A stretch of DNA of 34,756 bases from Lachnospiraceae bacterium (GTDB lineage Bacteria > Bacillota > Clostridia > Lachnospirales > Lachnospiraceae), in NCBI GenBank assembly GCA_017551665.1, contig JAFZLB010000097.1:1-34756 (forward strand), written 5' to 3'. This document shows, piece after piece, positions 3,138-30,557 of this stretch. The notes under the pieces are model-generated. The model was given only the letters and a program-made list of their open reading frames with translations. It did no database searches and was not told the DNA's origin. Position 1 is the stretch's first letter; each line of letters opens with the position of its first letter. Both the position numbers and the translations under genes were made by a program.

Positions 3138-3177
3138 TATCGTGATACCCTGTGGCGCAAGCCGTAGTATCACGATA
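3138..3177 (+). promoter_or_regulatory. 40-bp palindromic element: 11-bp inverted repeat, GNRA-capped hairpin
   Basis: TATCGTGATAC (3138-3148) and GTATCACGATA (3167-3177) are exact reverse complements. Between them TGTGGC and GCCGTA can also pair, with two G-U pairs, around a GCAA tetraloop. The whole is a 17-pair stem with only a two-base CC bulge. Each outer arm is also almost palindromic itself, TATC-GT-GATA and TATC-AC-GATA, and the two copies start exactly 30 bp apart. It has no T-tract, so it is not a standard terminator. It overlaps the predicted transcription start and lies just before the ribosome site at about 3180-3186. It could be a double operator or a leader-RNA hairpin. Confidence 0.6.
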
Positions 3178-3193
3178 CAGAAAGGGAATCTGT

Positions 3194-3988
3194 ATGCTGC
3201 GCGAAATTTTATTGATCGCGGACAAAGAAAACTTCGGAATGAAATCCGTCGCGAACGCGTTTCGGACGCGTGGCGTCGCGGTGCGTAACGTCGGCATGTC
3301 CTTCAGCGCCCTGCCGCGCCCCGCGGACTGCCCGCCCGTGATCTTCCTCTTTCTGGACGAATGGGATGTGGACCGCCGCGGCGTCATGGGAGAAATCCGT
3401 GACCTCGTGCAAAACGCGGACACGCTCTTTTTTGTGGCGAGCGACGGGAACTATTTTCTTTCGGACGCCGCCAAAAGGGACCTGGGCGACCGCGTGACCG
3501 GCACCTTCTCGCGCCCCTTCAACGCCAACGAAATCGCGGAGCGGGTGCTGCGGGTTTTAGACGAAAAAATCAGCACCGGCGAAGTCGTCATACAAAAGCC
3601 GCAGCAAAAGGAAGAGCGGGCAAAGCGCATCCTCATCGTGGACGATGACCCGACTTCCCTGCGCGCCCTGCGCGGCGTGCTGCACAATGCCTATAAGGTT
3701 GTCATGGTGGACTCCGCCATGAGCGCGCTGGTCTATCTGGAAGACCGTCATCCCGACCTGATTCTTTTGGACTACGAGATGCCGGCCATCAACGGGCCGC
3801 AGTTTCTGGCGATGCTGCGGGCCAGGGAAAAACTGAAGGACATTCCCGTCATGTTTCTGACGGGCAAGAGCGATAAAGACACGGTGATGACGGTCATGGA
3901 TCTGAAGCCCGCCGGCTATCTGCTGAAGAGCACGCCGACGGAACAGATCCTCGAAAAGCTATCGGACTTTTTTCTGAGCAATGAGTAA
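3194..3988 (+). CDS. Tandem receiver-domain response regulator without output domain
   Basis: 264 residues. The start is the ATG at 3194, preceded by AGAAAGGGA; the in-frame ATG at 3152 lies inside the palindrome and has no ribosome site. Residues 145-260 form a canonical receiver: acidic triad Asp150-Asp152, phosphoacceptor Asp193 (LLDYEMP), Thr223 (LTG) and Lys245 (LLKS). Residues 1-125 look like a second, degenerate receiver, with FLFLDEWD around Asp55 and FSRPF where the conserved Lys would be. No DNA-binding or enzymatic output follows. The stop overlaps the next start by 8 bases, so it is translationally coupled to the kinase. It is probably a phosphate-accepting or adaptor element of the relay encoded by the next two genes. 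Confidence 0.85.
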   Translation: MLREILLIADKENFGMKSVANAFRTRGVAVRNVGMSFSALPRPADCPPVIFLFLDEWDVDRRGVMGEIRDLVQNADTLFFVASDGNYFLSDAAKRDLGDRVTGTFSRPFNANEIAERVLRVLDEKISTGEVVIQKPQQKEERAKRILIVDDDPTSLRALRGVLHNAYKVVMVDSAMSALVYLEDRHPDLILLDYEMPAINGPQFLAMLRAREKLKDIPVMFLTGKSDKDTVMTVMDLKPAGYLLKSTPTEQILEKLSDFFLSNE

Positions 3989-5888
3989 TTTCTGGCCGGA
4001 GGCGGGCGCGGCGGTCTTCGGACTGATTCTGTGCATCAGCCTCGCAACGAAATACAGGGACGCGAACGAGGCAAACAAGTACTTCCGCGAGCTTGCCTAT
4101 GCGGTGACGTCCGTCGCGATCATCGACGTGGTCTCGGTGCTGTTTCATATTCTTCTGCCCCCCGCATACGCGGGACTGTTCCTGTTCATCTCCACCCTGT
4201 ACTATATCCTGACGGCGCGTTCCGCTTACTGTCTGCTGCGTTATGTCGCTTTCCGGGCGGAGCGGCAGAACGGTAAGTTTTACCGCGCGCAGAAATACAT
4301 TTTCCTGCTGGACATGCTGCTGATTCTCAGCAATCTGCCCTTTCCCTGGCTTTTCCGCTGGGGCGCGGACGGACAGGTGATCTACGGGACGCTGTATCTG
4401 CCCGTCACCTACGGCGTCGCCCTGTATTTCCTTCTGACCGCCTGCATCCTGCAGGGGGTGGACCGGGAAATCTATACGCTTTTGCAGCGCATCGTGCTGC
4501 GCATGGCAGGGGCGTTGATGCTGATTGCCTTTCTGATTCAGTTTTTCATCCTGCGTGATTTGTATTTCAGTTTTGCGGTGGGCATTTTCAGCGTGTACAT
4601 TGTGTTTTTTGCGGTGGAGGCGCCGGTGTACCGGAGGCTGGAGGAACTGACCGGACATCTGATTCTCACAAGACAGGAATCGGACGAGGCCACGGTGCGC
4701 GCCCATCACGCGGCCAACGCAAAGAGCTCGTTTTTGGCGTCCACCTCCCATGAAATCCGCACGCCCATGAACGCGATCATGGGCATCAACGAACTGATTT
4801 CGCGAGCCACGGCGGACGAGCATATTAAAGAGGTTTCGGAGGAAATCCGCATCGCGGGCATCAATCTGCTGCAAATCATCAACGATGTTCTGGATTACAG
4901 CCGCATCGAATCCGGCAAGATGGAGCTGGTGGAGGATGTGTTCAGTTTAAGTGACGTTTTGATGGAAGTGGAGCGCACCTGGCTCGCCCGTGTGGAATCG
5001 AAGCAGCTGCAGTTCCAGATCGTCATCGACGACAAGGTGCCGGATGAGCTTTACGGAGATCAGGACAAGCTCCGGCAGGTGCTGACCAATCTCGTGTCCA
5101 ACGCCGTGAAATACACGGACCAGGGCTCCGTCATCCTCTATGTCAAGCGCGTCCGCAAGGACGGCAGGGATCTGCTGGAAATGAATGTCGAGGATACCGG
5201 CGCGGGCATCCGCGAAGAAGAGCTGGGCAAGCTCTTTACGGTCTTCACCCGCGCGGCGCTCGAGGAAAACCGCAACAAGCCGGGCGCGGGCCTCGGCTTA
5301 AAAATCAGCGAAGAGCTCACGCACATGATGGGCGGCACGATTTCCGTCGAAACCGAATACGGCAAGGGAAGCCGCTTCATTCTGCACATTCCGGTGGATG
5401 TCACGGAATCGGATACGAAGGCAAGGCCCTTATTCTGGGACAAGGAAGCCAAGCGGCGCGAAGAGGAAAACAGCATTTCCTTCGGCGCACCGGGACGAAG
5501 GGTTTTGGTGGTGGATGATACCGTCGTCAATCTGACGGTGATGCGCGGGATGCTGCGCCCCACGCAGATGACGGTGGATGAAGCCATGAGCGGCGCGGAA
5601 GCCATCGCGATGGCCAGGCAGACCCGCTATGACATTGTCTTCCTGGATCACATGATGCCGGAAATGGACGGCATTGAGACGCTGCACGCTTTGCGCAAGA
5701 TTCCGGAATACGGCCAGGGCGAGGCCTGCATCGTGGCGCTCACCGGCAACGCGGACGAAAAGGCAAGGGCCTTCTATCTGGAGCAGGGCTTTAACGATTA
5801 TCTCGCAAAACCGGTGAAGGAGCGGGAGCTGTTCCTTGTGCTTCGGCGTCACCTTGCGGATTACGCGGCGGAAGGAGGTGGCCTGTGA
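3981..5888 (+). CDS. Membrane hybrid histidine kinase (7TM-like sensor, HisKA, HATPase, receiver)
   Basis: 635 residues. Residues 1-215 contain about seven hydrophobic segments with no large loop, so the sensor is probably membrane-embedded. A HisKA domain follows with phosphorylatable His257 (STSHEIRTPMN). The ATPase has an N box (LVSNAVKYTD, about 370-380), DTGAGI (405-410) and AGLGLK (436-441). A C-terminal receiver has VDD at 511-513, phosphoacceptor Asp556 (FLDHMMP) and Lys610 (LAKPV). It overlaps the preceding gene by 8 bases and the next by 4, so all three are one translationally coupled unit. With no Hpt domain of its own, it could use the Hpt of its neighbour. The signal is unknown. 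Confidence 0.93.
   Translation: MSNFWPEAGAAVFGLILCISLATKYRDANEANKYFRELAYAVTSVAIIDVVSVLFHILLPPAYAGLFLFISTLYYILTARSAYCLLRYVAFRAERQNGKFYRAQKYIFLLDMLLILSNLPFPWLFRWGADGQVIYGTLYLPVTYGVALYFLLTACILQGVDREIYTLLQRIVLRMAGALMLIAFLIQFFILRDLYFSFAVGIFSVYIVFFAVEAPVYRRLEELTGHLILTRQESDEATVRAHHAANAKSSFLASTSHEIRTPMNAIMGINELISRATADEHIKEVSEEIRIAGINLLQIINDVLDYSRIESGKMELVEDVFSLSDVLMEVERTWLARVESKQLQFQIVIDDKVPDELYGDQDKLRQVLTNLVSNAVKYTDQGSVILYVKRVRKDGRDLLEMNVEDTGAGIREEELGKLFTVFTRAALEENRNKPGAGLGLKISEELTHMMGGTISVETEYGKGSRFILHIPVDVTESDTKARPLFWDKEAKRREEENSISFGAPGRRVLVVDDTVVNLTVMRGMLRPTQMTVDEAMSGAEAIAMARQTRYDIVFLDHMMPEMDGIETLHALRKIPEYGQGEACIVALTGNADEKARAFYLEQGFNDYLAKPVKERELFLVLRRHLADYAAEGGGL
5872..5878 (+). promoter_or_regulatory. 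Ribosome binding site that fixes a GTG start
   Basis: AAGGAGG lies 6 bases before the GTG at 5885, inside the end of the upstream kinase gene. It supports the GTG start, whose last two bases begin the upstream TGA stop. Confidence 0.8.
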
Positions 5889-8452
5889 GCACCCCTTATA
5901 TCGTCGAACTGAACGCGGTGGCCCTCTTCTTCTCGCTTGCGCTGAGTGCGTTTTTGTTTATCCTGCGCCGGCGCGCCCACAGCATCCGCCCGTCCTTCCT
6001 GCATCTTTTGATGTTCGGCTCCCTCGTCTGCGCGGCGGAGGTGGTGAACGGCCTGCTGTATAATTACAGCATTTCCCATCCGCCGGGATTCTCCTTCCTG
6101 ACCGTCAGCAATATGCTGGTGGAAGTGCTGGAGCTGGCCAATGTCGTGTTTTACATGCGTTATATTGTGGATCTGTCGGGGGATGAACAGCGGGGCAAAA
6201 AGGTGCTCCTGCCCTTTTACGGCATTCTGATTGTGCTCACGGCGGTGCAGCTGTTCAATGTGATGACCGGCTTCTTCCTGCGCATCACCGGGGACGGCGT
6301 CATGCATCACGGCACGGGCATGTATTTCATCAGCTACATCATCCCCTTCGGCACGCTCACGGCCGTGGTGGTGATTTACTTCATTCTGATTCCGAAGGAG
6401 CTTCCGTCCAGACGCTTTGCGGTGCTGAGCACCTATGTGCTGCTGCTCGTCGCGGTGCTGATTCAGGTGGTCTTTGCGCCGCAGCTGACGGCCGTCGGCT
6501 TTGCGGTGGTGGTGAGTGATTTCATTATCTATTTCATATACGAGACGCCGCCCTTCAAGCAGCTGCAGGAAAAAATTGTGCAGCTGGAGGAAGCGGCACA
6601 GCTGGCGGAGGAAGCCAAGGCCAAGGCGATGGAGGAAGACCGCGGCATGAACGATTTCCTCGCGAACATGTCCCATGAAATCCGCACGCCCTTAACCGCC
6701 ATCTTAGGCTACAACGAGGTCATCCTCATGGACGCCCAGGAGGAGGATGTGCAGGATTACGCGATGGACATCGCCAACGCCGGCAATTCCCTGCTGCATA
6801 TCGTGAACGACATCCTGGACTTTTCGCGCATCGAATCCGGCGAGATTACGCTGGCGGGCACGGAATATCTGCTGACGGATGTGTTGGACAATATCGAAAA
6901 CATGATCCGCAAAAAGGCCGGGGACAAGGGGCTGGAATACCGCAGGCAGATCGACGAAAAGACGCCGAACGAGCTCTTCGGCGACAGCGTGCGCGTGGGA
7001 CAGATTCTCATCAACCTGCTGAACAATGCCGTGAAATACACGAGGCGCGGTTTTGTGGAGCTGCGGATCCGCGAGGAAAAGGACCGCCGGGCGAGGGACC
7101 GCATCGTGCTGCACGCGGAGGTTGTCGACAGCGGCATCGGCATCCGCGACAAGGACGCGGCGAAGCTGTTTGAGCGCTTTGCGCGACTGGATACGGAAAA
7201 GAACCGCAGCATCGAGGGCAGCGGCTTAGGCCTTGAAATCACCTCCCGTTACTTAAAGCTCATGGGCGGCAGCATCACCTTCAAGAGCATATACGGCGAG
7301 GGCTCCACCTTTATCGTGGAGATTCCGCAGGAGATTACGGGCACGCGCACCGTCGGGGATTACGAGAGCGGCGTTATGAAGCGCATCCGCAGACATACGG
7401 AGATTCTCGCGCCCGACGCGAAGGTGCTGGTGGTGGATGATAATGAAACGAACCGCACCGTGGCCAAGGAGCTGCTCCGGGATACGCTGGTGCAGGTGGA
7501 TTTGGCGGATTCCGGTGCCGCCTGTCTGGAAGTGATTACCGAAGAAAGCTACGACCTCATCCTTTTGGACCAGATGATGCCGAACTTGAGCGGCCCGGAA
7601 ACGCTGGCCTACATGAAGGCCATGAAGGACAACAAGAGCGCGCAGGCCCGCGTCATCGCCTTTACGGCGGACGCGATCGCCGGGGCCAGGGAGCGGCTGC
7701 TGGCGCAGGGCTTTGACGACTATGTCTCCAAACCCGTGACGCGCGGCGATCTCTGCGGTCTGCTGTACCGGCATCTGCCGGAAGACAAGCTTCTGATGCC
7801 GGGGATGAAGGGCTATGACGAAGCTAAGAGCAGGGAGGACGCGCTGCACCGCGAGCAGGAAAAGAGCGAGGCGCAGACGATGCTCGAACGCCTGGAGGGC
7901 ATTGACCTTGCGGAGGCGCTTTCCATCTGCGGAACGAAGGAAGTGCTGCTGGCGGCGGTCAGGGATTTTTATCTGACGATCGACCAGCAGGCGGATCTGA
8001 TCGAGCAGTACCTTGCGGCGGATGATCTTGCGAATTACACGATCAAGGTACACGCGCTAAAGAGCGCCGCCCGTTTCATCGGCGCAAGGAAGCTTTCGGA
8101 AGACGCCGCCGCGCTGGAGGAGCTCGGAAACCGCAAGGAAAAAACGCAGATTGAAGAGCGGACACCGGAGCTGCTTTCGATGTACCGCGCTTACAAAAAG
8201 CATCTGTCCGCCATTGACCCGGACGCGAATGCCGGCGAGGAAGACCCGCGGGAGGAGATTTCTTCGGAAGAGCTGGCCGAGGCCTTGTCCGAGATGAAGG
8301 CCTTCGTGGATGACTTTGACTTCGACGGCGTCGATGCCGTGCTGGAAGCGCTCGAAGCCTACCGCATGCCGGAGAGCGAAGCGGAGCGCTTCAAAAAAAT
8401 CCGTCTGGCGGTCACAAACGTGGACCGCGAGGAGCTTTTGAAGCTGCTTTGA
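5885..8452 (+). CDS. Membrane hybrid histidine kinase with receiver and Hpt domains
   Basis: 855 residues starting at GTG, overlapping the previous stop by 4 bases. The N-terminus (about 10-220) has seven or so membrane helices, then a coiled-coil-like linker (about 225-252). HisKA His264 is in MSHEIRTPL. The ATPase has NLLNNAVKYT (377-386), DSGIGI (415-420) and GSGLGLE. The receiver has VDDNETN (517-523), phosphoacceptor Asp562 (LLDQMMP) and Lys616. An Hpt domain follows with His723 in VHALKSAAR, then a helical tail to 855. HisKA, receiver and Hpt together give a full His-Asp-His chain, so the final Asp acceptor may be the double-receiver protein encoded first in the operon. No transcription regulator is encoded with them. 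Confidence 0.93.
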   Translation: MSTPYIVELNAVALFFSLALSAFLFILRRRAHSIRPSFLHLLMFGSLVCAAEVVNGLLYNYSISHPPGFSFLTVSNMLVEVLELANVVFYMRYIVDLSGDEQRGKKVLLPFYGILIVLTAVQLFNVMTGFFLRITGDGVMHHGTGMYFISYIIPFGTLTAVVVIYFILIPKELPSRRFAVLSTYVLLLVAVLIQVVFAPQLTAVGFAVVVSDFIIYFIYETPPFKQLQEKIVQLEEAAQLAEEAKAKAMEEDRGMNDFLANMSHEIRTPLTAILGYNEVILMDAQEEDVQDYAMDIANAGNSLLHIVNDILDFSRIESGEITLAGTEYLLTDVLDNIENMIRKKAGDKGLEYRRQIDEKTPNELFGDSVRVGQILINLLNNAVKYTRRGFVELRIREEKDRRARDRIVLHAEVVDSGIGIRDKDAAKLFERFARLDTEKNRSIEGSGLGLEITSRYLKLMGGSITFKSIYGEGSTFIVEIPQEITGTRTVGDYESGVMKRIRRHTEILAPDAKVLVVDDNETNRTVAKELLRDTLVQVDLADSGAACLEVITEESYDLILLDQMMPNLSGPETLAYMKAMKDNKSAQARVIAFTADAIAGARERLLAQGFDDYVSKPVTRGDLCGLLYRHLPEDKLLMPGMKGYDEAKSREDALHREQEKSEAQTMLERLEGIDLAEALSICGTKEVLLAAVRDFYLTIDQQADLIEQYLAADDLANYTIKVHALKSAARFIGARKLSEDAAALEELGNRKEKTQIEERTPELLSMYRAYKKHLSAIDPDANAGEEDPREEISSEELAEALSEMKAFVDDFDFDGVDAVLEALEAYRMPESEAERFKKIRLAVTNVDREELLKLL

Positions 8453-23101: not shown

Positions 23102-23791
23102 ATGGCACTGCCGGTATCGGAGTTTCTCTCAATCGGAAAGGGTGTGACCGTGCTGCTTGGCAGCGGCGGCAAGACCGCGCTCATGCAGACGCTGGCAAGA
23201 GAGTTGCCGGGGCGGGTGCTTCTGTGCACCACATATTACTTCTTTCCGCTGCCCGGCACGGCCTTTTTGTCCATTTCCGACTGCACGGAGGAAGAGGAAA
23301 AGGACAAGCTGAAGATGCTGCTCTCCGAAAACCGCGTCGTCTGCGCGGGGCAGATCGCGGGGGGCGGGAAGCTCTCGCGTCCCTTTACCTCCTTTGACCG
23401 CCTGCGGGAGCTGGCCGACTATGTGCTGGTGGAAGCGGATGACGCGCGGGGCCTACCGCTGAAAGCACATGAGCACAATGAGCCGGTGCTGCCGGAGACG
23501 GCGGACGATACGGTGTTGGTGATCGGGGCGAGCGGCTTTATGAAGCCGGTGAAGGAAGTCGTGCATCATCCGGGCGTCTTCAAGCTGCTGACCGGCTGCG
23601 CGGATGACGCCCTCGCGAAGCCGGAGCTTGTGGCAAAGGCCTATCAAAATGAGCACCTCGCGAAAAAGGTGCTCATCAATCAGGTCGAGTCCCGCGAAGC
23701 GCTCGCGCTTTCGGAGCGCTTTCTCAACGCGACGGATGTGGCGGTGACGGTCGGCTCCTTACAGAAAAACGCCTTTAAGCAGTATCTGTGA
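23102..23791 (+). CDS. yqeC: YqeC-type putative selenium cofactor biosynthesis protein
   Basis: 229 residues. The N-terminus VTVLLGSGGKTALMQTLA is a P-loop-like motif (residues 16-33). VLVEADDARGLPLKAHEHNEPVLP matches the YqeC family signature (VEADGSxGLPLKAHxxxEPVIP), and VVHHPGVFKLLTG follows. YqeC is associated with selenium-dependent molybdenum hydroxylases, where its precise reaction is unknown. None of the usual partners (yqeB, selD, xanthine dehydrogenase genes) is in this window, so the copy is isolated here. It starts 14 bases after the kinase stop and may simply be co-transcribed. It is convergent with the next gene with a 2-base gap. Confidence 0.85.
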   Translation: MALPVSEFLSIGKGVTVLLGSGGKTALMQTLARELPGRVLLCTTYYFFPLPGTAFLSISDCTEEEEKDKLKMLLSENRVVCAGQIAGGGKLSRPFTSFDRLRELADYVLVEADDARGLPLKAHEHNEPVLPETADDTVLVIGASGFMKPVKEVVHHPGVFKLLTGCADDALAKPELVAKAYQNEHLAKKVLINQVESREALALSERFLNATDVAVTVGSLQKNAFKQYL

Positions 23792-24591: not shown

Positions 24592-25335
24592 ATGAAAAAG
24601 AGATTTTTGGCAATGGTCGTCGGGATGTCGATGCTCGCGCTGACAGCCTGCGGCTCGACGGCAGTGACCGACAGCGGCAGCTCCGCATCTGCCGCGGCAT
24701 CAACGGCCGGCGCGGAGAGTTCGACGGCAGCGGCAGAGACCGCGGAATCCGTGTATGAGCTCTACAACCGCACCGGTGATGATCTGACCGAGGTATTCAT
24801 CTACGAGGCCGGTTCTTCCGACAAGGGCGAAAACCTCAGCGATCAGTTCCACGGCGGACACGCACACATTGACAAGGGCCAGCTGCCCACCGGTGTGGAC
24901 TTCATCCTGGAGTTCACGACAGCGGGAGGCTACACGGCGAAGTTTGAAACCCTGCATGCCGAGGTGGCGCCGATCACCCTGCTGGCGGAGGATGCGCTGA
25001 CCGGCCCTACGGTCATCGCCTTCCAGTACCCTGTGGAGCCCGCGCAGTACGAAGTGCACAACCGCACCGGCGAGGCCGTCACGGAGCTGTATATTTACGA
25101 AGTCGGCTCTGCGGACAAGGGAACGAATTTCGCGGACGGCGGCATGGACGCGGATGCGAAGGTCGATATCGATTACGGCGATCAGAGCGTGGAGATCAAG
25201 TACACGATCGAGTACACGACAGAGAGCGGCCGCAACGCACAGTTTGATACCCTTTCGGTTGAGGTGGCACCGATTTATCTTCTGTCCGAAGATGCCATGA
25301 CCGGCGCTTCCCCGATTTCCTTCATGGAGCCGTAA
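24592..25335 (+). CDS. Lipoprotein with two tandem copies of an unknown domain
   Basis: 247 residues. The lipobox LTAC places the lipidated Cys at residue 20, and a Ser/Ala-rich linker runs to about 52. Two homologous units follow, about 53-146 and 152-247. Each starts with a Y-E-L/V-N-R-T-G motif, continues with LTEVFIYEAGSSDKG or VTELYIYEVGSADKG, and ends with VAPI.LL.EDA.TG plus a hydrophobic tail. I do not recognise the domain. It has its own strong promoter, and apbE follows after 18 bases, so the two lipoproteins are probably co-expressed. It could be a surface component of the flavin electron-transfer system, but no redox motif is visible. Confidence 0.85.
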   Translation: MKKRFLAMVVGMSMLALTACGSTAVTDSGSSASAAASTAGAESSTAAAETAESVYELYNRTGDDLTEVFIYEAGSSDKGENLSDQFHGGHAHIDKGQLPTGVDFILEFTTAGGYTAKFETLHAEVAPITLLAEDALTGPTVIAFQYPVEPAQYEVHNRTGEAVTELYIYEVGSADKGTNFADGGMDADAKVDIDYGDQSVEIKYTIEYTTESGRNAQFDTLSVEVAPIYLLSEDAMTGASPISFMEP

Positions 25336-25353: not shown

Positions 25354-26418
25354 ATGAAAAAAGTGCTTCAAAAAACAATGCTATTGTTACTTGTCTTGTG
25401 TCTGGGTGCCTGCGGTGCCCGGACACAAGCCGTTTCGGGGACATCCGCCGGGGAAGAAGAAACGAAGATGCGCCGTTTCGAAGAGACCTGGCTGGATCTC
25501 TTTGACACGGTCACGGTCGTCAAGGGCTACGCAAAAGACAAAGAGACCTTTGACGCGGAGGCCTCCAACATCTACGACAGACTGCTGTATTGCTACCGGC
25601 TCTTTGACATCTATGAGAGCTACGAGGGCATTAACAATCTGAAAAGCGTGAACGACAACGCAGGAGTGGCCCCGGTGGCGGTGGATGCGGAGATCCTGTC
25701 CCTGCTGAAGTTCGGAAAAGAGATCTATGAAGCCTCCGGCGGCACGGCGGACATCACGCTCGGTGCGGTGCTTTCGGTCTGGCACGAGGCAAGGCTGACG
25801 GGCATGGAGCATCCCGCGGAAGCATACGTGCCGGAAGAAGCGCTTCTCTTAGAAGCAAAAACACACACCGGCTGGGAACTGCTGGAAATTGACGAGGCAA
25901 AGGGAACGGTGTTTCTGACGGACCCGGAGGCCTCGCTTGATGTGGGTGCGATCGCCAAGGGCTATGCCGCGGAATATGCCATGAAGGACGCGCCGGAGGG
26001 ATATCTTTTGAGCCTCGGCGGCAATGTGCGCACGAAAGGGATGCGCTCCGACGGCACCCCCTGGGTGGTCGGCGTGCAAAACCCGGAGGCCCCCGATTCC
26101 GGCTCCCTCTTTTCGATCTACGCGACGGACTGCTCGGTGGTGACAAGCGGCGATTACCAGAGATACTATACCGTGGACGGCGTCAACTATCATCATCTCA
26201 TTGACCCGGACAGCTGTATGCCCGCGGCGTACTGGCGCGGCGTCACGGTGCTGTGTAAGGATTCCGGCGTGGCGGACGCGCTTTCCACGGCGCTGTTTTT
26301 GATGGAATTGGAGGAAGGGCAGGCACTGGCCGCCCGTTACGATGCCGAGGCCGCATGGATTGCCGCGGACGGCAGCACCGTCTTTACGGAAGGCTTTGAG
26401 GCACTGATCCGGCAATGA
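25354..26418 (+). CDS. apbE: FAD:protein FMN transferase (ApbE), lipoprotein
   Basis: 354 residues. The signal ends in the lipobox LGAC (Cys20), so it is anchored on the outer face of the membrane. Family marks include WLDLFDTVTVV near the start, GGTADITLGAVLSVW, DVGAIAKGYAAEYA at about 196-209, LLSLGGNVRTKG, and YHHLIDPDSCMPA near the C-terminus with the conserved Asp/His metal-site region. ApbE splits FAD and attaches FMN to a Thr in the motif (S/T)GAT of partner proteins. Its likely targets, the FMN-binding protein at 27732 and RnfD at 28288, are encoded convergently just downstream. Only 6 bases separate it from the end of the Gx-family gene. Confidence 0.95.
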   Translation: MKKVLQKTMLLLLVLCLGACGARTQAVSGTSAGEEETKMRRFEETWLDLFDTVTVVKGYAKDKETFDAEASNIYDRLLYCYRLFDIYESYEGINNLKSVNDNAGVAPVAVDAEILSLLKFGKEIYEASGGTADITLGAVLSVWHEARLTGMEHPAEAYVPEEALLLEAKTHTGWELLEIDEAKGTVFLTDPEASLDVGAIAKGYAAEYAMKDAPEGYLLSLGGNVRTKGMRSDGTPWVVGVQNPEAPDSGSLFSIYATDCSVVTSGDYQRYYTVDGVNYHHLIDPDSCMPAAYWRGVTVLCKDSGVADALSTALFLMELEEGQALAARYDAEAAWIAADGSTVFTEGFEALIRQ

Positions 26419-26424
26419 GCCCGC

Positions 26425-26952
26425 TCAGTGCAGAAAGCGCTTCATCAGCGGCAACAGCCGCAGACTGATGACCCCTAAAAGAAAGCCCGTGATTGCCCCG
26501 GCGATGAGCAGGGGCGGCACAAAATACCAGACGCTGTAGGTTTTGACAATCCAGGCCGCGCAGGCGGTCTGTCCGATGTTGTGCAAAATGCCCCCCGCAC
26601 AGCTGACGCCCGCGGCGGAAAAGCAGGGCAGCCGCTTGAGCAGCAGCATCCCGGCAAAGCTCAAAAGCGCACCGGAGAGACTGAACAGGATGGCGGAGAG
26701 GCCGCCGAACAAAAAGCCCGAGACGAGGATGCGCATGAGATTGATGCTCAGGGCCGGAACGGGACCTCTGGTGTAGAGCAAAAGCACCGTTACCAGATTG
26801 GGCAGCCCCCATTTCATGCCGGGCACCGCAAAGGGAACGGGAATCATGGTTTCGAGATAGGACAGCACCAGCGCAAGCGCCAGCATCATGCCGTACAGGG
26901 TCACCGGTATGCTGCCGCTGTTTTTGTTATCTGGCGAAGACATCGACATCAT
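26425..26952 (-). CDS. Gx transporter / heptaprenyl-diphosphate-synthase-component-I-like membrane protein
   Basis: 175 residues from the ATG at 26952; ATGs at 26949 and 26943 are alternatives. All overlap the end of the upstream gene. About five membrane helices are visible. The YLETMIPVPFAVPGMKWGLPNLVTVLLLY signature and GGILHNIGQTACAAWI are typical of proteins annotated as Gx transporters or component I of heptaprenyl diphosphate synthase. From memory, a NusG-domain-II plus Gx pair is found in the Listeria flavin-based extracellular electron transfer locus (eetA/eetB); here the same pair is last in an Rnf-like operon. It may serve assembly, quinone/flavin delivery or anchoring. A direct enzymatic role in prenyl synthesis is unlikely without component II. 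Confidence 0.83.
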   Translation of the reverse strand: MMSMSSPDNKNSGSIPVTLYGMMLALALVLSYLETMIPVPFAVPGMKWGLPNLVTVLLLYTRGPVPALSINLMRILVSGFLFGGLSAILFSLSGALLSFAGMLLLKRLPCFSAAGVSCAGGILHNIGQTACAAWIVKTYSVWYFVPPLLIAGAITGFLLGVISLRLLPLMKRFLH

Positions 26953-27289
26953 CCGCCTCGCCTCCCTCCACGGTAACAATGACACGATGCGGCAGACAGA
27001 TAATGCTCTGCCCCTCTTTGGAAATTTTGCCGGTTTTGACACAGGAAAGATCCGGACAGTCGGCGTCCTCCAAAAAGGCCTGCCCGTCCCGGATGACCAG
27101 ATTGTTATAGCCGCCGTCCGCGCCTTCGATTTGCAGACTGGTTTCTTCGGAAAGCGGATAGCGCCCGGACAAAGCGCCGTCAACGGTCACGACAACGAAG
27201 CCGCCCGAAGGCTTCCGGGATAACACAAAAAACAGAATGACCGCGACGAGAAGCACCGCGGGGAGAAACAGGAGATCACCCTTGCGCAT
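26927..27289 (-). CDS. NusG domain II-containing membrane-anchored protein
   Basis: 120 residues. One N-terminal membrane helix (about 6-24) is followed by an extracytoplasmic NusG-II-type beta domain. The pattern DCPDLSCVKTGKISKEGQSIICLPHRVIVTVEG, with paired cysteines CPDLSC and a third Cys in ICLP, is characteristic of this family in Firmicutes. These proteins are not transcription factors despite the name. They occur beside FMN-binding and Gx-type genes and are thought to support flavin-based electron transfer. It starts 5 bases after the upstream stop and overlaps the next gene by 26 bases, so the order is fixed within one operon. Confidence 0.88.
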   Translation of the reverse strand: MRKGDLLFLPAVLLVAVILFFVLSRKPSGGFVVVTVDGALSGRYPLSEETSLQIEGADGGYNNLVIRDGQAFLEDADCPDLSCVKTGKISKEGQSIICLPHRVIVTVEGGEADDVDVFAR

Positions 27290-27294
27290 CGGAC

Positions 27295-27735
27295 TTAAAT
27301 CAGGCCGCTCAGCACCTGGCTCGCCAGGTAGATCACAAAGGCGTTGACGAGAAGCGCCCCCTTCGTTCCCTTCACCGCTTCCGCGCGTTGTGCCATGCCG
27401 TCAAACATCAGCCCCGTGACCACAAAGACGAGGCAGCCGAAAAGACCGGTCAGGGCCGCCGCACGGATGCCGCTCACAAAGCCCGCGCCCCAGAGGAACA
27501 GGCCGAAGGTCAGGAAGGAAAACACAGCGCACAGGAGGGGATTATGAAACTTTTCCCTGCCCGTAAAGGCCTCGATCAGCATGGCAACGAGGCTGATGGC
27601 GGTCATCATCGGCAGATCCGGCTCGGGATACATGACCAGCGGTGCGATCACGCGCAGCAGAATCCCGATCAGGCAATAAGCCCCCAGCACCGCCGCCAGA
27701 CAGGTTTGGATATGCAGTCCGCTTTTTTTGCTCAT
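27295..27735 (-). CDS. Small polytopic membrane protein of unknown family in the Rnf-like operon
   Basis: 146 residues, ATG at 27735 after GGAGGAGGG. Four to five hydrophobic helices are visible: about 10-32, 42-60, 67-90, 92-114 and 124-146. A polar loop (EAFTGREKFHNP) sits between the second and third. It lacks the length and the conserved Cys-containing helices of RnfA or RnfE, and has no CxxC, haem or FMN motif. It occupies the place where rnfE would follow rnfG in an rnf operon. The overlap with the preceding FMN-binding gene (ATGA) indicates stoichiometric expression. A structural or quinone-channel role in the complex is a guess from position only. Confidence 0.8.
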   Translation of the reverse strand: MSKKSGLHIQTCLAAVLGAYCLIGILLRVIAPLVMYPEPDLPMMTAISLVAMLIEAFTGREKFHNPLLCAVFSFLTFGLFLWGAGFVSGIRAAALTGLFGCLVFVVTGLMFDGMAQRAEAVKGTKGALLVNAFVIYLASQVLSGLI

Positions 27736-28274
27736 TCTCCCTCCTCCCATTCCGAGGCACCGGACTCGGTATCCTCTCCGGTCACGACGGCACGCGCCGC
27801 GTTGATCGCGCGGGCCACCGCCTTGCTGGATACGGTCGCACCCGTGAGCGCGTCAATATTCTGACCGACCGTAACACTTGTTTTTTTACCGAGAAACTGT
27901 GACAGGAAGCCGGTGTCGTTTTTGACGCGGCCGCCGAGCCCCATTGTCTCCGACACCTTGCGGGGCGCAATGCCTTTGATCGTGCCGTCCGCGTCCACGG
28001 CGACCCAGAGGACGATGCTGTCCACATAGCCGTCCGTTTCGACTTCGATGATCCTGCCCTCTCCGGCGCGATAGACCGCGCGGATGCCGGCGTCATCCCC
28101 CTCATAAGGGAGCTCTTCGTAGGAATCCGCGGGAAGCATCGTGCCAAACATCTGCTCCCGCGCGAGAATCTCTTTTTCCGCCGCGGTGGAACGCAGCCCC
28201 GCGGAAAGCGCAAACAGGAGGACAGCGCAAACCGCCGTGACCACTCCGCTTTTCATCCATCGATTCAGAGACAT
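27732..28274 (-). CDS. rnfG: FMN-binding domain protein, RnfG-like
   Basis: 180 residues, ATG at 28274 preceded by GGGAGGAG; an upstream in-frame ATG has no ribosome site. One N-terminal membrane helix (about 8-26) and an extracytoplasmic FMN-binding domain. The flavinylation motif DALTGATVSS is at residues 141-150, with Thr147 the expected covalent FMN site. SETMGLGGRVK (about 108-118) is the family glycine-rich loop. In Rnf complexes RnfG passes electrons through this FMN, which ApbE attaches; an ApbE gene is nearby. The C-terminus carries a short acidic tail (GEDTESGASEWEEGE). It starts 13 bases after rnfD. Confidence 0.93.
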   Translation of the reverse strand: MSLNRWMKSGVVTAVCAVLLFALSAGLRSTAAEKEILAREQMFGTMLPADSYEELPYEGDDAGIRAVYRAGEGRIIEVETDGYVDSIVLWVAVDADGTIKGIAPRKVSETMGLGGRVKNDTGFLSQFLGKKTSVTVGQNIDALTGATVSSKAVARAINAARAVVTGEDTESGASEWEEGE

Positions 28275-28287
28275 GTCCGCTCCTCCC

Positions 28288-29253
28288 TTATCCTTTCTTT
28301 GCGCCGTAGATGCGCCGCGCAAACAGCCTGTCCAATAACGGTGCGATGCCGTTCATCATCAGAATCGCGTAGGTGACGCCTTCCGGGAAGAGCCCGAAAT
28401 ACCGGAAGACCACGGTCAGAACCCCGCAGCCCGCGCCGTAGACGATCTGCGCCGTCTGTTCCACCGGCGAAGAGGCGTAATCCGTCGCCATGAAAATCGC
28501 GCCGAGCATCACGCCGCCGCTCAAAAGGCTGTACGCCATCCAGGCCACCACATTCTCGTCCTTGGCAAAGATCAGCGTCAGCAGCGCAACCGTCAAAAGA
28601 TAGGCGCCCGGAATCCGGAGGCTGATGACCTTGCGGAACACGAGGTAAGCACCGCCGACGAGCAACGCGACCGTGCAGACCTCCCCGATGCAGCCGCCGG
28701 TTTTGCCAAGGAGCAAGTCCGTCAGTTCCACACGTGGCAGCGCCGGCATCTGCATTGTGTGCAGGGGCGTCGCGCTCGTGATGATGTCCGCGGGGTCAAT
28801 GTTGCCCGCGGGCAGAATGCCGAAGGGGGCGGTAAAGCGCACCATGCCGACCGGAAACAGCAGCATCAGAAGGGCACGGGACGCCAGTGCGGGATTGAAG
28901 CAGTTGTGTCCGAGCCGGCCGCCGATGCCCTTGACGACAAAGGTGGCGAAAAAGCCGCCGACGAGCGGGATGTGATACGGCACCGTCACCGGCAGCGTCA
29001 GGGCGAGCAGCAGTCCCGTGACGACGGCGCTCATGTTCTTTAAGTTCCCCGGCTCCCGCGAAACCAGATGATACACAAATTCTCCCGCCAGCGCCGCGAG
29101 GACGGAAACGGCGGTCACGAGCAGGGCCCGATAGGTAAAGATCAGGGTACCGGCGATCAGGGTCGGAAGCAGTGCGATGATCACATCCGTCATGATCCGC
29201 CCGGTGGTATCCTTTCCCCGGATATGGGGCGATACAGTCACTCTCAGATTCAC
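28288..29253 (-). CDS. rnfD: RnfD-like membrane subunit of electron transport complex
   Basis: 321 residues from a GTG at 29253, which overlaps the rnfC stop by 4 bases (GTGA). AAGGAGG 10 bases upstream fixes this start. It is a polytopic membrane protein with about nine helices of the NqrB/RnfD family. LRVTVSPHIRGKDTTGRIM at the start, NLKNMSAVVTGLLLALTLP, LGHNCFNPALASRALL and ATDYASSPV are all family marks. ITSATPLHT around Thr162 corresponds to the covalent FMN site of RnfD (usually SGAT); the Gly is missing here. It should accept FMN from ApbE and move electrons and ions across the membrane. Confidence 0.94.
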   Translation of the reverse strand: MNLRVTVSPHIRGKDTTGRIMTDVIIALLPTLIAGTLIFTYRALLVTAVSVLAALAGEFVYHLVSREPGNLKNMSAVVTGLLLALTLPVTVPYHIPLVGGFFATFVVKGIGGRLGHNCFNPALASRALLMLLFPVGMVRFTAPFGILPAGNIDPADIITSATPLHTMQMPALPRVELTDLLLGKTGGCIGEVCTVALLVGGAYLVFRKVISLRIPGAYLLTVALLTLIFAKDENVVAWMAYSLLSGGVMLGAIFMATDYASSPVEQTAQIVYGAGCGVLTVVFRYFGLFPEGVTYAILMMNGIAPLLDRLFARRIYGAKKG

Positions 29254-30557
29254 GCCTTGGTTTCCTCCTTCAGAAAGCGCTTTCCTTCTTTGAAACGCGC
29301 GGTAAGCGGCAGCTTTGCGGGGCAGACATAAGCGCAGCAGCCGCATTCAATACAGTCGTTCAGATGAAGCTTTTGCAGCTCCTCCGCGTTTTTGGCCTCC
29401 GCGTACAGATACATGTTCAGCGGCTGTAAGCGGATGGGGCAGACGGTCAGGCATTTGCCGCAGCGGATGCAGACGGGGTGTTCCACCTCGCGGTTGTCTT
29501 TTCGGGAAAGACAAAGCACGGCGTTGGTGCCCTTGGTGACGGGCGCGTCCAAAGCGTTTTGCGCAATGCCCATCATGGGTCCGCCGGAAATGACCTTGTC
29601 CGCGTCCTCGGTCAGACCGCCCGCCGCCTCAATCAGCGCGGAAAAAGGCGTGCCGATGGCGGCAATCACATTTTTGGGCTCCCGGACCGCCTCACCCGTG
29701 ACGGTGACGATGCGCTCCGTCAGGGGCTTGCCTTCATACACCGCCCGGCAGACGGCGGCAAGCGTTGCCACGTTAAACACCGCGCAGCCCGCGTCGGCAG
29801 GCAGCCCGCCGGAGGGAACCTCACGGCCTGTCACCGCCATGATCAGCTGCTTTTCGGCCCCCTGCGGATAACAGGTGGGAACAGGCAGGCAGACCATGCC
29901 CGCAAAGGAAGAAAGGGCTTCCGTGACCGCGGCGATGGCTTCTTTTTTATTATTCTCCACGGCGATCACAATCCGCTTCGGCTCCAAAACAGAGGCGATG
30001 CAGCGCAGCCCGCGCAGCACATCCCGTGCCCGTTCGCGCAGTAGCAGATCATCCGCCGTGATATAGGGCTCACATTCACAGCCGTTGGCAATCAGCGTAT
30101 CCACCTTGCCGATGCCGGAGCGGATTTTCACATCCGTCGGGAAGGTCGCGCCGCCCATGCCGGTGATGCCGGCTTCCCGGACGATACGGATGAGCTCCTC
30201 CGCGGAAAAGACCGTATCTTCGGGATGTGCCGTGAGCGTGTTATCCTTCACATCCGTAAAATTGTTGCGGATGATGACGCTTAAGACCGTACCGCCGCCG
30301 GGGTAAGGCATTTCCTTTATGTCTTCCACGATGCCGGCGACCGGCGTGTGCACCGGCACGCACAGCCCCTCGCCGTCCCCGATCTTCTGACCGGCCTTCA
30401 CCAGATCTCCCACGGAGACCAGCGGCTTGCAGGGCGCACCGATATGCTGACGCAGCGGTATTGTTAAAATGGCCGGTGCGGCAAGCGGCTCCGGCGTTTT
30501 GAGACACAATTCTTTTTTTTGCGGGGGATGCGTTCCCCCATAGAACAGAGATTTCAT
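29250..30557 (-). CDS. rnfC: RnfC-like NADH/ferredoxin-side subunit
   Basis: 435 residues, the normal RnfC length without the long Ala-rich tail of proteobacterial forms. The N-terminus IPLRQHIGAPCKPLVSVGD is typical. GITGMGGATFPTDVK is the SLBB/FMN-NADH-type binding stretch, followed by ANGCECEPYITADD. Two [4Fe-4S] motifs are present: C363-x2-C366-x2-C369-x3-C373 and C402-x2-C405-x2-C408-x3-C412. RnfC is the cytoplasmic electron-entry subunit. It is first in the operon, with a TATAAT 22 bases above the ATG and AAGGAGGG before it. The divergent neighbour is rpiB, so no rnfB or rnfA precedes it. Confidence 0.95.
   Translation of the reverse strand: MKSLFYGGTHPPQKKELCLKTPEPLAAPAILTIPLRQHIGAPCKPLVSVGDLVKAGQKIGDGEGLCVPVHTPVAGIVEDIKEMPYPGGGTVLSVIIRNNFTDVKDNTLTAHPEDTVFSAEELIRIVREAGITGMGGATFPTDVKIRSGIGKVDTLIANGCECEPYITADDLLLRERARDVLRGLRCIASVLEPKRIVIAVENNKKEAIAAVTEALSSFAGMVCLPVPTCYPQGAEKQLIMAVTGREVPSGGLPADAGCAVFNVATLAAVCRAVYEGKPLTERIVTVTGEAVREPKNVIAAIGTPFSALIEAAGGLTEDADKVISGGPMMGIAQNALDAPVTKGTNAVLCLSRKDNREVEHPVCIRCGKCLTVCPIRLQPLNMYLYAEAKNAEELQKLHLNDCIECGCCAYVCPAKLPLTARFKEGKRFLKEETKA
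29264..29270 (-). promoter_or_regulatory. Ribosome binding site that fixes the rnfD GTG start
   Basis: AAGGAGG on the minus strand lies 10 bases before the GTG at 29253, within the end of rnfC. It rules out the longer frame that would run far into rnfC. Confidence 0.75.

Follow-up and report, generated by a model that had tools for sequence, protein, structure and literature searches.

The window analysed here is a stretch of 34,756 nucleotides on contig JAFZLB010000097.1 of a Lachnospiraceae bacterium (assembly GCA_017551665.1, 118 contigs, 91.4% complete). It carries a tight minus-strand operon (26425-30557) encoding RnfC, RnfD, RnfG, a small membrane protein that we call X, a NusG_II domain protein, which we take to be EetA-like, and Gx (Table 1). 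An initial annotation had described this gene series, with a convergent apbE, and profile searches confirmed its open reading frames (ORFs) and families. Both ends of the operon lie within the window, bounded by a divergent rpiB and by apbE, and rnfA, rnfB and rnfE are absent from the locus, as that annotation had stated. Gene starts were refined by eye, after which the operon genes overlap or nearly overlap. The rnfD gene starts at GTG 29253, coupled to the rnfC stop, rnfG starts at ATG 28274, X starts at ATG 27735, overlapping the rnfG stop, and Gx starts at an ATG at about 26952, picked by position, that overlaps the NusG_II gene. The stop codons of Gx and apbE are 6 bp apart, and a lipoprotein-like gene missed by the initial annotation lies 18 bp upstream of apbE.

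Table 1. Genes of the operon and of its convergent flank (window coordinates).
Feature	Position	Strand	Assignment	Profile evidence
rnfC	29250..30557	-	NADH/FMN subunit, two [4Fe-4S] motifs	TIGR01945 500.7 bits (cut-off 245.95), PF01512, PF13375
rnfD	28288..29253	-	membrane flavin subunit	PF03116 329.3 bits; TIGR01946 269.4 bits (cut-off 207.05)
rnfG	27732..28274	-	membrane-anchored extracytosolic FMN subunit, DALTGAT	PF04205 (FMN_bind) 51.4 bits (cut-off 22)
X	27295..27735	-	146-residue membrane protein in place of rnfE-rnfA-rnfB	no family over cut-off
NusG_II domain protein	26927..27289	-		PF07009 104.3 bits
Gx	26425..26952	-	EetB-like ECF-S subunit, probable FAD exporter for ApbE	PF07456 132.4 bits
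apbE	25354..26418	+	FAD:protein FMN transferase, lipoprotein-like N terminus	PF02424 206.2 bits
lipoprotein-like protein	24592..25335	+	247 residues, two repeats, candidate ApbE substrate	no family over cut-off
FMN, flavin mononucleotide; FAD, flavin adenine dinucleotide.

The three Rnf subunits of the operon were compared with those of solved complexes. RnfC carries two CxxCxxCxxxCP motifs and aligns with the solved RnfC chain 7zc6_C at 391.7 bits, and all eight of these cysteines are conserved at 90% or more among 29 RnfC sequences from loci with X (window included). In RnfD, residues T193, N151 and D289 (352-residue numbering) correspond by alignment, with positions counted by hand, to T156, N123 and D249 of A. 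woodii, which are the flavinylated threonine and the riboflavin-site asparagine and aspartate of that enzyme (PMC11889175; statements drawn from this and the other cited papers refer to the excerpts available). The three residues are conserved at 90% or more among 30 X-type RnfD sequences, again including that of the window. A profile search of RnfD returned PF03116 only, with no fusion to the NAD-binding domain PF00175. RnfG can be aligned with the RnfG chains 7zc6_G and 9eri_G, and it is the sole match of the FMN_bind profile in the window genome. RnfC, RnfD and RnfG by themselves form a limb that links NAD(H) to the outside across the membrane, and the mapped cofactor residues are kept there.

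With regard to the other half of the pump, the RnfA/E profile (PF02508) had no match anywhere in the window assembly. The same profile was positive in 4 of 14 control genomes and in 211 of the 291 class-sample genomes, three genomes of the window's genus among them. Similarly, the RnfB-type iron-sulphur domain (PF04060), detected in six of the eight genomes searched, was without match in this assembly. Given the completeness of 91.4%, the absence of rnfA, rnfE and rnfB probably extends from the locus to the whole genome.

The only other RnfD of the window genome is encoded on a different contig (C28), where it adjoins an RnfC. This rnfC-rnfD pair (L036:4430-6927) is flanked by homologues of genes that flank rnf elsewhere in the genus, and its products cluster with the RnfC and RnfD of the genus with a bootstrap of 100, so it corresponds to the genus's own rnf locus after the loss of rnfG, rnfE, rnfA and rnfB. 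The same reduction is observed in G353, a 94% complete genome of the same genus (L153:6523-8882), in which the RnfA/E and RnfB profiles had no match. In both genomes the remnant ORFs are open and RnfD lacks the S/T-x-A-T flavin site. In the C28 RnfD, a proline is aligned with the flavinylated threonine, the riboflavin-site asparagine and aspartate being kept, and the C28 copy bears a long acidic tail. The remnant is changing fast, since RnfC and RnfD are only 75% and 63% identical between C28 and G353 and their neighbours are 86 to 95% identical. As rnf decay does occur in this lineage, the window operon could itself be a functionless, decaying remnant of a canonical rnf operon. We give this explanation almost no credence, as the window operon falls in another clade, which is conserved, its mapped residues are intact and its relatives at other loci with X are under purifying selection. 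A more specific version, which takes the window operon for the genus's own canonical rnf after decay, was rejected because that locus is the one on C28. Across the window's genus, RnfD matches were found in 77 of 79 genomes, none of them more than 43% identical to the window RnfD besides the window's own.

The distribution of this gene arrangement was examined by scanning the window RnfC against one genome each of 84,980 species and, of the 88 loci obtained, keeping the best 80, whose ORFs were all mapped with hidden Markov models (HMMs). In L073 (titled Faecousia sp.) and in L074 (titled Bacillota bacterium) the genes run in the order lipoprotein-ApbE-RnfC-RnfD-RnfG-X with no RnfE, RnfA or RnfB at the locus, and their RnfC are 56% and 55% identical to that of the window, respectively. 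RnfE is present in 74 of the remaining 78 loci. Three of the four loci without it stop at a contig end, and the fourth, L089 (titled Candidatus Zymogenus), consists of RnfC alone (94-2055), no RnfD being found in the remaining 3.8 kb of that contig.

Protein X was detected in a single one of 391 class-sample genomes, the window's own. In the genus of G477, the Faecousia record that contains L073, 30 of the 101 genomes sampled have it. As G478, the genome of L074, is also among these 30, 28 further loci were fetched. X directly follows rnfG in all 30 loci, starting at most 64 bases from the end of RnfG in each of the 28 fetched. The complete C-D-G-X series is found in 26 of the 28 (28 of 30 overall), and a lipoprotein and ApbE lie upstream in 25 of the 28 (27 of 30 overall), the lipoprotein of L226 being split into two ORFs. 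The incomplete loci, L204, L209 and L213, all stop at contig ends. The C-D-G-X core of the order described by the initial annotation is thus conserved elsewhere. No RnfE or RnfA match was obtained in any of the 28 fetched loci or of the 30 overall, and one of the 28 shows a weak RnfB-type match about 6 kb away on the opposite strand. NusG_II and Gx are inside the fetched stretch in five of the 28 loci, and also in L073, and no further neighbouring gene family occurs in more than seven of the 28. With its recurrence in about a third of the sampled Faecousia-type genomes, the X-type set looks like a real electron-export module.

Both Faecousia-type genomes that were checked also carry canonical rnf genes, with a complete CDGEAB series in G477 (L159) and DGEAB with a cut RnfC in G478 (L160). 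Subunits could therefore be shared in these genomes, and RnfCDG-X may be an alternative peripheral set that pairs with RnfA, RnfE and RnfB from the canonical operon to form a second isoform of the ion-pumping Rnf. We consider this unlikely, because neither RnfA/E nor RnfB is matched in the window genome, where the canonical locus is down to rnfC and rnfD, and because such pairing leaves X without a role. The initial annotation had named a complete rnfABE set elsewhere, co-occurring and co-evolving with the operon, as one finding that would speak against a reduced complex. A canonical rnf set is present in G477 and, but for the cut RnfC, in G478, and none was found in the window genome.

Two further loci are described here in their own right. 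L037 (5412-11797, genome G316) contains a second, independent rnfC-rnfD-rnfG-NusG_II-Gx cluster with a divergent apbE, in which a 260-residue RnfE/A-like protein (hhalign 84% to RnfE) occupies the place where rnfE-rnfA-rnfB would stand, and the same genome also holds canonical RnfA/E. Homology of X to this protein was rejected, there being no profile similarity. L038 (6245-8699, genome G326) has an rnfC-rnfD pair with no rnfG, rnfE, rnfA or rnfB alongside, and the canonical rnf operon of that genome lies elsewhere (L039).

A tree of RnfC and RnfD was built from 65 chosen loci, 15 of them with X, over 745 columns and rooted on two Shewanella. The window and the 14 other X loci form one clade (bootstrap 100), within which the window branches as sister to the remaining 14 (bootstrap 96). 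Next to this clade are the canonical RnfC and RnfD of L159, from the genome of L073, of L075 ([Clostridium] viride) and of L076 (Oscillospiraceae), and the 18 group together at 100. The tree suggests that the lineage on the Faecousia/[Clostridium] viride side most likely gave rise to the X operon, out of a canonical rnf operon, and that the operon was then transferred, the direction presumably being into the window's lineage.

Protein X is under purifying selection, as its ratio of non-synonymous to synonymous substitution rates is 0.04 to 0.33 in six pairs. In an alignment of 31 X sequences no cysteine or histidine column reaches 90% conservation, so X is unlikely to carry a cluster or a haem. 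The commonest cysteine column is occupied in 25 of the 31 and is absent from the window X, whereas both cluster-binding cysteines are present in 40 of 40 RnfA. The X homologue of L073 gave weak matches to Bax1-I and YqhR (E 0.01).

The initial annotation had also considered that X might prove to be a diverged RnfA or RnfE. Kinship to RnfA is hinted at by the profiles and is not established, and no match to RnfE was found. The alignment of 31 X sequences matches RnfA by hhalign over 58 C-terminal columns with a probability of 51% (p 1.5e-4), the reversed controls giving 0.14 to 0.31. With the RnfA HMM, one X is recovered at E 1.7e-5, against 0.06 for the best of the reversed X sequences, and among RnfA sequences the X HMM best matches those of L075 and L076, which are close to the X clade in the tree. 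Together with the position of X after rnfG, this is what would be expected if X were an RnfA that had diverged strongly, losing the first helix and the cysteines but still forming an ion path, in which case electron flow would still be ion-coupled. We nevertheless regard such a protein as improbable: the X HMM scores an RnfD fragment (16.5 bits) above every RnfA (best 12.7 bits), global hhalign reaches only 2.5%, X matches no family, and the two cysteines of RnfA are not conserved.

Gx, downstream of X, bears on the supply of flavins. Its family, PF07456, corresponds to EetB, which in Listeria is the FAD-exporting ECF-S subunit needed for flavinylation of PplA, and the family occurs near Rnf genes in 572 Clostridia genomes; deletion of eetA left extracellular electron transfer (EET) unchanged (PMC9973259). 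In our samples, the NusG_II profile matches 214 of 291 class-sample genomes, and of the 74 canonical rnf loci in the scan, 20 include both NusG_II and Gx in the stretch that was fetched. The role of EetB and the presence of Gx at canonical rnf operons therefore make Gx a sign of flavin supply, and not of EET as such, so the initial annotation's use of NusG-II and Gx as markers of EET was not upheld.

The lipoproteins next to apbE are the candidate targets of ApbE. The two repeats of the window lipoprotein are 47% identical (internal BLAST) and end in DALTGPT and DAMTGAS, and ApbE recognises an [S/T]GA[S/T]-like motif (PMC11334425). The background for this motif comprised 228,909 residues of ORFs that match none of Rnf, NusG_II, Gx, ApbE and X, drawn from 80 named loci and the window. 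DA.[ST]GA[ST] occurs in it once, in the window lipoprotein itself (DAMTGAS), with DALTGPT falling outside the pattern, and the looser D..[ST]GA[ST] and [ST]GA[ST] occur 3 and 25 times, respectively. The window lipoprotein may thus be a new ApbE target. Its matches to 14 other genomes of the 391-genome class sample are weak and confined to the N terminus; its own genome has one further match, on C53, inside a different lipoprotein. Two repeats are also seen in the lipoproteins of the Faecousia X loci. The first repeat contains DL...[AS][TS]I in 25 of these 27 proteins, all 27 show a [VC][TS]I form, and they align with the repeats of an L046 protein whose N terminus is a true FMN_bind domain.

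In the solved Rnf complex, electrons are passed in the order RnfB, 2Fe-2S cluster of RnfA/E, FMN of RnfG, FMN and riboflavin of RnfD, iron-sulphur clusters and FMN of RnfC, and NAD. RnfG contacts mainly RnfA/E, and RnfD is reported to be an electron carrier without Na+ movement, against earlier suggestions (PMC11889175). The reading that best accommodates the locus, and which the initial annotation had already put forward in outline, is a reduced complex that passes electrons outward. We favour, with somewhat more confidence than doubt, a reduced RnfCDGX complex providing a one-way and probably non-pumping path from NADH to surface flavins. Electrons would enter from cytosolic NADH at the FMN of RnfC, pass its two 4Fe-4S clusters, the riboflavin and covalent FMN of RnfD and the covalent FMN of RnfG, and then reach flavoproteins on the outer face. 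These would be the two-domain FMN-bind-type lipoproteins in Faecousia and probably the 24592-25335 lipoprotein in the window genome, which would hand the electrons to a further acceptor beyond the surface flavoproteins. Gx would export FAD, from which ApbE would place FMN on RnfD, RnfG and the lipoprotein. With RnfB absent there would be no entry of electrons from ferredoxin, and with RnfA/E absent neither a 2Fe-2S step nor their ion path. In this complex X would be a cofactor-free membrane partner that takes over the docking of RnfG from RnfA/E.

Several observations weigh against this reduced, outward-directed complex, in addition to the canonical rnf genes of the two Faecousia-type genomes. 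The assembly is 91.4% complete, and RnfG is divergent, scoring 55.2 bits against TIGR01947, below the cut-off of 102. In 4 of the 28 fetched X loci, less than 2 kb is available downstream of X. A review places a Na+ path in NqrB, the homologue of RnfD (PMC12174285). Since that path has been proposed by others and the result on RnfD comes from one group, lack of pumping is only probable. No homologue was found for the window lipoprotein beyond the weak N-terminal matches of the class sample, and the PplA model NF041941 covers only its residues 7-51, at 15.9 bits against a cut-off of 325. The two X-operon lipoproteins tested, those of L073 and L074, were assigned neither to FMN_bind by Pfam nor to PplA by NCBIfam (no match to the latter at E 0.1), and the second repeat of the X-locus lipoproteins reads [VC][TS] in the place of the A[ST] of the known motif. 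Finally, the direction of flow could be the reverse. The ordinary complex runs RnfG-RnfD-RnfC toward NAD+ (PMC11889175), so reduced extracellular flavins or other donors might reduce NAD+ by this route. This inward path appears very unlikely, as no extracytosolic donor enzyme recurs beside the operon, and the lipoproteins, ApbE and FAD exporter seem akin to known outward systems.

A more complete scenario, which we put forward tentatively and consider possible although less than probable, adds a history to the outward complex. RnfCDGX would be a quinone- and ferredoxin-independent, non-pumping NADH:extracellular-acceptor oxidoreductase. Its origin would lie in the Faecousia/[Clostridium] viride lineage, where rnfE and rnfB were lost from a canonical rnf operon and the RnfA, deprived of its iron-sulphur site, became the docking protein X. 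The set, common in Faecousia, would then have passed to the window's lineage, whose own pumping Rnf was subsequently lost, and its electrons would go to surface lipoproteins, represented in the window genome by a new class of ApbE substrate.

Elsewhere in the window, positions 3152-8449 encode, in succession, a response-regulator protein, two hybrid histidine kinases, a CAP-domain protein and an HDOD-domain protein. The product of 23102-23791 is presumably similar to YqeC, a selenium-related protein. For this contig, contamination from a foreign organism was rejected on the basis of its transketolase half, which shares 68 to 76% identity with 21 of 24 genomes of the genus and at most 61% with others in the order. 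The remaining three same-genus genomes, each at most 80% complete, gave distant matches only.

If the outward reading is correct, a pump cut down to a one-way electron exporter would be a natural test of what RnfA/E and RnfB contribute. It would also provide a quinone-free route for the disposal of NADH at the cell surface in Faecousia, which is a common genus of the gut and mostly uncultured, and the lipoprotein next to apbE would represent a new flavinylated domain. Annotation could assign a partial Rnf to genomes with the X operon, and an energy yield modelled with an Rnf pump in them would be in error. No description of RnfCDG without RnfA, RnfB and RnfE was found among the literature matches listed, a search that covered neither subscription papers nor survey supplements.

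Compared with the RNF complex (RnfABCDGE; 7zc6, 9eri), the window operon shares RnfC, RnfD and RnfG with their mapped cofactor sites, as well as ApbE, and NusG_II-Gx is also found beside part of the canonical rnf operons examined. In contrast, it has X instead of RnfA, RnfE and RnfB, and the Faecousia-type loci have a fixed two-domain lipoprotein and ApbE upstream. A 2021 survey defined RNF by RnfB and NQR/RNF-like systems by a PF03116-PF00175 fusion (PMC8238504). The latter consist of two subunits, an NqrB/RnfD membrane domain in fusion with PF00175, which lacks the flavinylation site of RnfD, and an RnfG/NqrC-like subunit (PMC11334425; PMC8238504). In gene content the window operon fits half of the Rnf/Nqr path, as these systems do (Meheust 2021; Huang 2024), and a one-way flow from NAD(P)H to an extracytosolic FMN-binding protein is proposed for them and would hold here as well. 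The operon differs from them in having a separate RnfC as NADH module, a conserved RnfD threonine and X. Since these definitions need either RnfB or the PF00175 fusion, the operon is outside both groups, and operons of this type would be missed by them.

The Gram-positive EET locus comprises Ndh2, demethylmenaquinone, FmnA/B, EetA/B and PplA. The window operon has in common with it an EetB-like protein (PF07456) and ApbE (PF02424), and the lipoprotein of the Faecousia-type loci is likewise predicted to carry two flavins. However, the window lipoprotein was not assigned to the PplA family, and the operon has neither an Ndh2 nor a quinone gene, and electrons would enter through RnfC-RnfD; no gene for an Ndh2-type NADH dehydrogenase was found between 24592 and 30557, beyond which the genome was not searched for one. 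As RnfA/E and RnfB, two defining parts of RNF, were searched for and gave no match, we do not file the operon as an RNF member and place it instead with the one-way systems derived from Rnf/Nqr, as a further form of them.

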